Shown here: positions 16,711 to 28,200 of the stretch, piece after piece
Position numbering within the stretch: the stretch's first letter is position 1
How the letters are laid out: the number at the start of each line of letters is the position of its first letter
NCBI GenBank assembly: GCA_903894425.1
Contig: CAITQC010000132.1
Span: 1 to 34,437, forward strand
Length of the DNA: 34,437 nucleotides
Source: an uncultured Actinomycetes bacterium
GTDB lineage: Bacteria; Actinomycetota; Actinomycetes; Nanopelagicales; Nanopelagicaceae
Reading direction: 5' to 3'
Position numbers and translations under genes: made by a program
The notes under the pieces: generated by a model
Told to the model about the DNA's origin: nothing
Seen by the model: only the letters and a program-made list of their open reading frames with translations
Database searches by the model: none

Positions 16711-17469
16711 TTATCGTAGATGAACTACGTCACCGGCTTGAACATGAGTGCCTGAGTCTAAAACCAACTCTCCACGAGGCGAGATTGCGATTGCAACTCC
16801 TTTTTCGATTTGATCATTTGGGTAATGAATCTGAACTCTAGTTCCAAGAGTTGAACTTAAGGATTTATAGAGTTCGGCAATTGATTGATCACCTTGGTCC
16901 CAGGCTGCAAAATTTATTTCAAATTGAGACAAAATCTTGGCTAACAAATGGTTTCGATCGATATTTTCTACACCTTCAATTGCCAGAGAAGTAGCGGTAG
17001 GTACAGGTAACTCTTGCGCGGTCATTCCTACATTTATTCCTATTCCAACTATCACGCCTTCTCCGGCGATTTCGGCAATTAATCCTGAAACTTTCTTTTC
17101 ATTTATCAAAATATCATTAGGCCATTTAACACTTGCTCCATATGGCTTGAGAGTTTGAGCAACTGAGACTCCTGCAATTAAGGCAATCCAGCCCCAATCT
17201 TCTTTATCTCTCTCTGGCTCTAAGTAGAAAGAAAAAAGGAGTGCACTATTTTTTGGTGCTTCAAATGTACGTGACATTCTTCCGCGCCCTGATCTTTGAA
17301 AATTTGCAGTGACCACATCTCCGGGTTTGGCTTTCCCATCATTTGCGCGCTCCACCAGAAGGTTTTGGGTTGACGCGGTGACATCAACCACGCTTACTCG
17401 CCAGTACTGCGTAACTAAAGAGTTGATGAGCACTTTATCCAGTGCCGCTCTTAGCATTTGCTTGCCCAT
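16711..17469 (-). CDS. birA: Biotin--[acetyl-CoA carboxylase] ligase (lacks N-terminal HTH)
   Basis: [49 protein letters not shown]; start re-assigned from 17505 to ATG 17469 ([12 protein letters not shown]). Confidence 0.93.
16713..16718 (-). promoter_or_regulatory. -10 element TACGAT, purK (leaderless)
   Basis: TACGAT-AAGCCA-GTG(16706); overlaps the birA stop codon. Confidence 0.4.
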
Positions 17470-17487
17470 GACATGTACCGTAGGGGC
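17470..17487. promoter_or_regulatory. Putative 18-bp bidirectional leaderless promoter between birA and accD
   Basis: gacatgTACCGTAggggc: TACCGT+6 nt+ATG on plus, TACGGT+7 nt+ATG on minus; the hexamers overlap at 17476-17482. Confidence 0.6.
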
Positions 17488-19059
17488 ATGAGCCGTGATC
17501 TGCATACTACTGCCGGAAAAATTGAAGATCTACGCGCGCGAATTGAGGAAGCGGTACACGCTGGCTCGGCGCGCGCAGTTGAAAAGCAACATGCCAAGGG
17601 CAAGAACACTGCCCGTGAACGTATTGAAATGCTCGTTGACCCAGATTCATTTACTGAAATCGATGAGTTCGCACGCCATCGCTCTACCGCCTTTGGGATG
17701 GAAAATAACCGTCCTTACGGTGATGGTGTAGTTATTGGTACTGCAACAGTTGATGGAAGACCAATCGCTCTGTACTCACAAGATTTCACCATCATGGGCG
17801 GATCGCTCGGTGAAGTTCATGCTGAAAAAATAGTAAAGATCGCAGAGTTCGCGTTAAAGAGTGGTATTCCACTTATTGGTATTAATGACTCAGGTGGTGC
17901 ACGTATTCAAGAAGGCGTTGCCTCTCTTGCTGGCTACGGAAAGATTTTCCGTCTAAACACTCGCTCCTCCGGTGTAATACCTCAGATCTCACTGATTCTT
18001 GGACCATGCGCGGGTGGTTCAGCGTATTCGCCAGCACTTACAGATTTCACTGTGATGGTTAATGAGACATCGCACATGTTTATCACTGGTCCAGATGTTA
18101 TTAAAACCGTTACTGGTGAAGAAGTTGGAATGGAAGAGTTAGGTGGGGCGCGCACTCACAATACTCGTACCGGTAATTCTCATTACTTAGCTGAAAATGA
18201 AGCCGATGCAATTGATTATGTGAAGGCACTGCTTTCATATCTGCCATCAAATAATATGGATGGTGTTCCACATCTGCCCCCAACCCAAACACTTGAAAAA
18301 AATGTAACAGATATCGCCTTAGATACTTTGATTCCAGATAGCCCTAATCAGCCATACGACATGAAGGTTCTAATTCAAGCCCTTGTTGATGAGGGCGAAT
18401 TCCTTGAAGTTCATGCTCTGTATGCGCCTAATATTGTTGTTGGCTTCGCCCGCATCGAAGGCGAATCGATTGGAATTATTGCAAACCAACCAAATCAGCT
18501 AGCTGGAACTTTGGATATTAACTCAAGCGAAAAAGCTGCACGTTTCTTACGTTTCTGCGACGCTTTTAATATTCCAATCCTAACTCTTGTTGATGTTCCA
18601 GGGTTTTTACCTGGAACTGAGCAAGAGTGGGATGGCATCATTCGTCGCGGAGCAAAGTTGCTCTACGCATACGCTGAAGCTTCAGTTCCATTGGTAACTT
18701 TGATTACACGTAAAGCATATGGCGGAGCATTTATTGTTATGGGATCTAAGTATTTGGGTAGCGATATTAACTTTGCATGGCCGAGCGCTGAAATTGCAGT
18801 GATGGGTGCACAAGGCGCAGTAAATATTTTGTATCGTAAAGAACTCGCCGATGCCAAGGATCCCGTTGCTACTCGTACCCAGTTAGTTGATGACTACAAC
18901 GAATCACTTGCAAATCCATATCTGGCTGCCGAGCGCGGAACTATTGATACGGTCATCGAACCAAATCAATCGCGCGCATACATCACCAAGGCATTTAGAA
19001 CACTGCGCACAAAACGAGACACATTGCCAGCCCGCAAACATGGAAATATTCCGCTGTAA
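17488..19059 (+). CDS. accD: Acyl-CoA/propionyl-CoA carboxylase beta (carboxyltransferase) subunit
   Basis: [50 protein letters not shown]; start re-assigned to ATG 17488 ([11 protein letters not shown]). Confidence 0.95.
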
Positions 19060-19244: not shown

Positions 19245-19847
19245 ATGCCACGTATCGTTTTAGCTTCCGCATCTGCGTCCAGACGCCGCCTACTTGAATC
19301 TGCAGGATTAAAGCCAACAATTATGGTTAGCCATGTTGATGAAGAAACGGATTTCTTTAATGCCATGACGCCTTCAGACATGGTTATTGCTTTAGCAATT
19401 ACCAAAGCTCATACAATCCGCGAACAGATTGATTTTCCAGCAATCATTATCGGCTGCGATTCAACCTTTGAGTTTGAGGGTTTATCTCTTGGCAAGCCAG
19501 CTACGCCCGAGATCGCTATCGAACGTGCTTCACGTGTGCGCGCGCATTCAGGTCTTCTGCACACCGGGCACTGCATCATAGATACAAGCAAAGACAAAGA
19601 GATTTCTAGCATCGTGACCACCAAAGTTACATTTGACGATATGACCGATGATGAAATTGCAGATTATGTTGCAAGTGGCGAACCGCTACATGTAGCAGGC
19701 GGCTTTACTCTCGATGGTTTTAGTTCGCCATTTATTCCTTCAATCGAGGGTGACTACACAAATGTTGTCGGAATTTCAATGCCATTTTTGCGAAAGGCAT
19801 TTGGACAACTTGGATATTCATGGCCAGAGGTTAAGGTGATGCAATGA
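19245..19847 (+). CDS. maf: Maf family nucleotide pyrophosphatase
   Basis: [39 protein letters not shown]. Confidence 0.95.
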
Positions 19848-21562
19848 AACGCGTATTAATTGCCAACCGTGGTGAAATCGCTGTCCGCGTAATTCGTGCC
19901 TGTAAGGATCATGGATTACAGAGTGTGGCTGTTTACTCGGATGAAGATCGCACAGCTATTCATACACAAATGGCCGATGCCGCATATTCACTTAACGGCA
20001 CAACAGCAACTCAAACCTACTTAGATATAGAGAAACTAATTGCAGTTGCTAAAGAATCTGGCGCAGATGCAGTTCACCCTGGTTATGGTTTTCTTTCTGA
20101 AAACGCGAACTTTGCCCAAGCAGTTATAGATGCAGGATTAACGTGGATTGGTCCTCCCCCTGAAGCGATTCGCGCACTTGGTGACAAGGTTTCTGCGCGC
20201 AAAATTGCATCGAAGGCAGGCGCACCGCTTGTAGCTGGAACCAAGGATCCAGTTGCTGGGCATGAAGAAGTTACCGCATTTGCTAAAGAACATGGTCTGC
20301 CAGTTGCGATTAAGGCGGCCCATGGTGGTGGCGGACGTGGCTTGAAAGTAGTTCGCACGATGGAAGAAATTCCGGAGTTATTTGATTCAGCTGTTCGTGA
20401 AGCTATAAGTGGCTTCGGTCGTGGCGAATGTTTCGTTGAACGTTACTTAGATAAGCCCCGCCACGTAGAAACTCAAGTATTGGTCGATAAACATGGACAT
20501 GCAGTTGTTGTTAGTACTCGTGACTGTTCTTTGCAACGTCGACATCAAAAACTGGTTGAAGAAGCGCCTGCACCTTTCTTAACCGATGAACAAAATGCCG
20601 AGCTATACCGCTCGAGTAAAGCGATAATGAAAGAAGCAGGATATGTAGGCGCAGGTACGTGCGAATTTTTAGTCGGTATGGATGGGACTATTTCATTCCT
20701 GGAAGTCAATACTCGCTTGCAAGTTGAACACCCAGTTAGCGAAGAAATCACTGGCATCGATTTGGTTCGCGAACAGTTCAGGATTGCAATGGGAGAATCA
20801 CTTGGATTTGATGATCCAGTAATTCGCGGTCACTCAATTGAGTTCCGTATCAATGGTGAAGACCCAGGTCGATCATTTCTACCAGCGCCAGGACGCATCA
20901 CAGATTGGGCAATCCCTACCGGCCCTGGAGTTCGCGTTGACGCTGGCTTTAAAAATGGGGACACAATCGGTGGAAACTTTGATTCACTGCTTGCAAAGTT
21001 AATCGTCACCGGTGCAACTCGCCAACAAGCCATCGAACGTGCACGTCGAGCACTTGCCGAATTTACCGTAGAAGGATTGGCAACTGCCCTCCCATTTCAC
21101 CGAGCAATTCTTGAAGATCCTTCATACACCGAAGATTTCAAGGTTTACACAAGTTACATCGAAAATGAATTTGATAATCAGATTCCTGTGTATCAAGGCG
21201 CTGCAATTGCACTTGAAACACATATGGCACCTGAGTATTTAGTGACTGAGGTCAATGGCAAGCGCTTTGAAATATTAGTTCATGCACCTAAGCCAGTTGT
21301 TAAGCGTCACCGCGCTAAGCAATCAATGGCCGGTGGTTCGGGCGGAGCTGCATTGGCAAGCCCGATGCAAGGAACTGTTGTAAAAATCGCAGTTAATGAA
21401 GGTGACTCCGTAGAAATTGGTGATCTTGTTATTGTCCTTGAAGCCATGAAGATGGAGCAGCCACTAATGGCGCACAAAGCTGGTGTAATCACCAACTTAA
21501 CTGCGGTGATTGGAAACACAGTCTCGAGTGGAACCTCACTTTGTGACATTATTGATGCATGA
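19844..21562 (+). CDS. accA: Acyl-CoA carboxylase alpha subunit (biotin carboxylase + BCCP)
   Basis: [23 protein letters not shown]; biotinylation motif EAMKMEQPL near the C-terminus. Confidence 0.96.
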
Positions 21563-28182: not shown

Positions 28183-28200
28183 AAGCGATAGCCTATCGCC
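28183..28200. promoter_or_regulatory. Putative 18-bp bidirectional leaderless promoter between nucleoside hydrolase and rbsK
   Basis: aaGCGATAGcCTATCGCc: 7-bp arms, 1-bp centre. TAGCCT+6 nt+ATG on plus, TAGGCT+7 nt+ATG on minus; the hexamers overlap at 28189-28195. Confidence 0.65.

Follow-up and report, generated by a model that had tools for sequence, protein, structure and literature searches.

Leaderless genes with a TANNNT motif about 12 bp upstream are widespread in Actinobacteria (PMC3160421, Zheng et al. 2011), and TANNNT is likewise the -10 box of Mycobacterium tuberculosis (PMC3898074, Cortes et al. 2013). A second class of relevant promoters works in two directions. There, a -10 element that is nearly symmetric allows RNA polymerase to initiate both ways (PMC10268837). 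In these promoters (Warman et al. 2021, as described in PMC10268837 and PMC12825309) the two transcription start sites (TSSs) usually lie 18 bp apart, within a range of 7-25 bp, and A(-11) and T(-7) form reciprocal pairs; T at -18 is a preference and not a strict requirement. The TSS separation varies slightly when the distance from the -10 element to the TSS is suboptimal (PMC10268837, PMC12825309). Such promoters take one polymerase at a time, and their two directions can interfere (PMC12825309). The genes birA and accD5 are divergent in Streptomyces, Nocardioidaceae and other Actinobacteria as well, where they typically lie about 150-500 nt apart without a shared box. Our literature search found no paper on this birA/accD5 divergence, on leaderless genes in Nanopelagicales, or joining leaderless genes and bidirectional promoters in mycobacteria. 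The birA/accD gap described here appears to combine two features known from bacteria, the symmetric -10 bidirectional promoter and the leaderless start.

Two hexamers in an 18-nt gap

The window, i.e. the whole stretch of 34,437 nt that was analysed, encodes on its minus strand a biotin-protein ligase of 252 aa (birA, 16711..17469; PF03099, TIGR00121 above cutoff). On the plus strand follows an accD/pccB-type carboxyltransferase beta subunit of an acyl-CoA carboxylase with 523 aa (17488..19059; PF01039, E=3.9e-196; below cutoff for TIGR01117). Both genes are predicted to be leaderless. Downstream of accD lie a Maf-family protein and a biotin carboxylase/biotin carrier (BCCP) alpha subunit (19844..21562, plus strand; PF00289, PF02785, PF00364), which is likely the substrate of BirA. 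The nearest named genomes belong to uncultured freshwater Actinomycetota, including Candidatus Planktophila and Nanopelagicaceae MAGs.

The birA ATG at 17469 (CAT at 17467-17469 on the forward strand) and the accD ATG (17488-17490) are separated by exactly 18 nt (17470-17487, GACATGTACCGTAGGGGC), as the first-pass annotation had claimed. The gap contains TACCGTA at 17476-17482, a heptamer that is symmetric only as TAnnnTA or as TAC-C-GTA around an odd centre; at one fixed offset, a TANNNTA is expected by chance in about 0.5% of cases. The same annotation had assigned spacers of 7 and 6 nt to this core. These figures exceed what a 7-bp core leaves free in 18 nt, since the heptamer is flanked by 6 nt towards the minus-strand ATG and 5 nt towards the plus-strand ATG; they belong to the TANNNT hexamer of each strand. 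TACCGT on the plus strand (17476-17481) precedes the accD ATG by 6 nt, and TACGGT on the minus strand (17482-17477) precedes the birA ATG by 7 nt. A -10 hexamer with reciprocal A(-11)/T(-7) pairing can therefore be read on both strands of 17476-17482.

The spacing was compared with that of other genes in the window and in two complete genomes of the same genus, each sampled by 20 stretches of 20 kb (400 kb), counting the TANNNT spacer upstream of the longest start of each gene. A spacer of 6-7 nt occurred at 63 of 311 and 67 of 318 sampled genes (about 20%) and at 10 of the 30 genes of the window, and nearly all other spacers had single-digit counts in the sampled genes. Both accD (6 nt) and birA (7 nt) fall into this spacing class. 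No conserved Shine-Dalgarno sequence at a working distance was found before accD, and none before birA, in the gap and its counterparts in relatives; the GGGG that stands 1 nt before the accD ATG gives way to CGCC, TGTT or AGCG in relatives. The distance of 6-7 nt to the start codon and the lack of a Shine-Dalgarno sequence are shared with the leaderless TANNNT genes described earlier (Zheng et al. 2011; Cortes et al. 2013), from which the birA/accD locus differs in having a single box for two divergent genes (PMC3160421, PMC3898074).

The 18-nt gap (17470..17487, both strands) is thus very probably a minimal bidirectional promoter of the sigma-A type with a symmetric -10 element and leaderless mRNAs in both directions, as judged from the sequence. 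TANNNTA can be read as the actinobacterial -10 box in either direction at 6-7 nt from both start codons, hence leaderless transcripts are predicted on both sides. RNA polymerase would bind the symmetric box in either orientation and would start transcription on the first base of the start codon or at most one base away, giving leaderless mRNAs of accD on the plus strand and of birA on the minus strand; binding in the two orientations would be mutually exclusive. Promoter activity, start sites, leaderless translation and exclusive polymerase binding at birA/accD are what we infer from this arrangement.

The locus resembles the promoters of Warman et al. 2021 in having one -10 element on both strands, the A(-11)/T(-7) pairing and TSSs expected about 18 bp apart. 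It differs from that description in its predicted transcripts, which are leaderless housekeeping mRNAs, and in a promoter that occupies the entire gap. Two further differences count against the bidirectional reading: the start codons imply a TSS separation of about 19 bp versus the optimum of 18 bp, and there is no T at -18 when the A of each ATG is taken as TSS. This position is G17470 on the plus strand and also G on the minus strand (17487 is C on the plus strand), with T at -19.

Start codons of birA and accD

The mechanically called open reading frames extend beyond the chosen ATGs, to 17505 for birA and 17458 for accD, so that the re-annotation of the starts required support. If one of these longer starts were real, the genes would overlap and the core would be a fortuitous sequence within coding DNA. 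Another ATG upstream of accD begins at 17473. Positions 17472-17475 read CATG in the window and CTAG in most relatives, which places an in-frame TAG before the accD ATG and excludes the upstream accD starts 17458 and 17473 in those relatives. Upstream of accD, TANNNT-N6-RTG was found at about 117 sites in 112 genomes, all but six with CAY at the birA start. CAT or CAC occupied the position of the birA start (17467-17469) at 111 sites in 106 genomes, and the similarity of BirA relatives reaches residue 1 at the 17469 start.

The birA start at 17505 survived the stop-codon test because the triplet is a conserved His codon of accD read in reverse complement, and it therefore carries no information; left unexcluded by stop codons, it is nevertheless a point against the bidirectional promoter. 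The four T/A positions of the core were identical to the window in 68 of 68 comparisons with 17 relatives, as opposed to 41% identity at fourfold-degenerate accD sites, a contrast that also argues against a chance motif in coding sequence. Longer starts with overlapping genes are accordingly very improbable.

Conservation of the box and alternative readings

A family scan of 251 genomes was conducted with the pattern birA start, 18 nt and accD start, in which the box itself was not required. All 111 sites retrieved, from 106 genomes of five genera, carry TANNNTA at the same offset. All four T/A positions of TANNNTA were the same throughout 30 distinct variants of the gap, and the interiors CCG, CCT or CGG left TANNNT on both strands each time. 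The same holds for TAACGTA at one further locus (L078). The pattern had no match in 12 of the 17 family genera sampled, which may be explained in part by accD codons that it demands and that some groups lack, such as the one represented by L138; conservation across the whole family is thus not claimed. In this more distant group, L138 and L143 have TAAAGTG before a GTG accD start, with the seventh A lost and birA still close by. L108 shares the TAAAGTG box, its birA lying outside the covered sequence. Beyond the four T/A positions, the gap showed 76% identity in the same 17 relatives, and G17475 and C17478 were invariant in the 30 variants, neither of which is required by a bare TANNNTA.

This additional conservation exceeds the needs of TANNNTA and counts against a bare promoter. 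Because it extends past the -10 positions, and because the core comes close to a palindrome (GTAC-C-GTAC in some variants), the core could be regarded as an operator to which a dimeric transcription factor binds, either a biotin-responsive regulator or BirA itself. We consider such an operator quite unlikely. TACCTTA, present in 6 of the 30 variants, breaks the inner symmetry and retains both TANNNT boxes, and on this ground a transcription factor reading of the palindrome was rejected. Pairs of the same geometry with different interiors (TAGGATA, TACTTTA, TAGCCTA) and unrelated genes likewise speak against it. Matches of the minus-strand protein to models of bifunctional BirA start at profile residue 67 at the earliest, i.e. 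the N-terminal helix-turn-helix domain of the bifunctional repressor is missing, and autoregulation by BirA was ruled out for lack of this DNA-binding domain.

Among the relatives examined, the compact 18-nt form of the divergent pair was found only in Nanopelagicaceae-like genomes. Leaderless accD-like starts whose TANNNT lacks the seventh A occur in other Actinobacteria (TAGGGTG, TACAGTG, TACCCTG), and a leaderless-looking accD of this kind is present at several Actinomadura-type loci. Together with the wide spacing of birA and accD in other Actinobacteria, these boxes make the compact shared box look derived, and accD is likely, from these sequence comparisons, the older of its two directions. 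It could then be argued that accD is served by the only true promoter, in which case the birA side would result incidentally from the symmetry of the box and birA would mostly be transcribed from elsewhere; the birA-side spacing of 7 nt is indeed slightly off the commonest value of 6 nt. This is unlikely given that A17482, needed solely by the minus-strand box, is invariant at all 111 sites, and that birA is the first gene on its strand and all other upstream space is accD coding sequence.

Recurrence of the geometry and possible coupling of the gene pair

The window contains one other case with 6/5 flanks, the gap between a nucleoside hydrolase (minus strand, start 28182) and a ribokinase (plus strand, start 28201). 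This gap (28183..28200, both strands, AAGCGATAGCCTATCGCC) has the same 6/7/5 layout, in agreement with the identical architecture that had been reported for the two pairs, and one rule covers both, a symmetric -10 element combined with leaderless spacing of 6-7 nt. Two spacers of 6-7 nt around a 7-bp box result in gaps of 17-19 nt, mostly 18 nt.

Enrichment of the geometry was assessed by a gene-anchored test on the sampled 20-kb stretches and by pattern scans, using a looser gene caller, as the stricter one omitted birA/accD of one genome (G015). Divergent pairs whose TANNNTA had flanks of 5-6 nt numbered 6 in 4 spacing cells, compared with 8 in 425 control cells. In the sampled sequence, six divergent start pairs were separated by 18 nt, and every one of them contained TANNNTA. 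The six matches represent four gene pairs: birA/accD (in three genomes), nucleoside hydrolase/ribokinase, MobA-like/phosphoesterase and Crp-like/endonuclease III. A scan of 41 genomes of the genus with the strict ATG/ATG pattern gave 62 sites at 5/6 versus 17 at 8/9, and 27 sites at 5/5 (17 nt) and 16 at 6/6 (19 nt) versus 6 at 8/8, although orthologous sites recur in these counts, which are thus not independent events. A privileged length of 18 nt was rejected, as the counts per ordered spacing were 27 (5/5), 31 (mean of 5/6 and 6/5) and 16 (6/6); 18 nt is the commonest gap since 6 and 7 nt can be combined in two orders. The search proposed in the first-pass annotation, for divergent starts 18 bp apart with TAnnnTA, thus revealed an enrichment in the sampled genomes. 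With four gene pairs, and with birA/accD kept through much of the family, the suggestion of a recurrent compact promoter class is supported.

The conserved gene neighbourhood would make coupled expression of biotin ligase and its carboxylase substrate complex, as initially suggested, plausible. Competition between the two directions instead of coupling is possible by analogy with published bidirectional promoters (PMC12825309). If both transcripts compete for one box, the levels of ligase and carboxylase would be linked by the choice of the polymerase and not by a regulator. As a tentative idea, streamlined freshwater actinobacteria may employ promoters that are leaderless on both sides, with a single 7-bp symmetric box as the sole non-coding signal for two divergent genes; the birA/accD box, kept across several genera, would possibly fix the ratio of ligase to substrate through exclusive polymerase binding, with G17475 and C17478 tuning the directions. 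The birA/accD pair is a very clear example from nature of a bidirectional promoter predicted solely by the spacing of start codons (about 106 genomes compared), and for divergent genes of streamlined Actinobacteria TANNNTA with flanks of 5-6 nt provides a rule by which annotated starts can be corrected.

Between nucleoside hydrolase and ribokinase, the gap holds a perfect inverted repeat of greater length, GCGATAG-C-CTATCGC, to which related sites exist in many genomes of the genus; this repeat may also be an operator. The 18-nt gap between the Crp-like regulator and endonuclease III in a related genome (L047:7280-7299) is symmetric as well (GAAGGGTACTTTACTCGC). A 17-nt variant with 5/5 spacing, CATCACAGTAGGSTARGC..ATG, recurs at another conserved divergent pair in several genomes (e.g. 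G014:C1:808279-808301).
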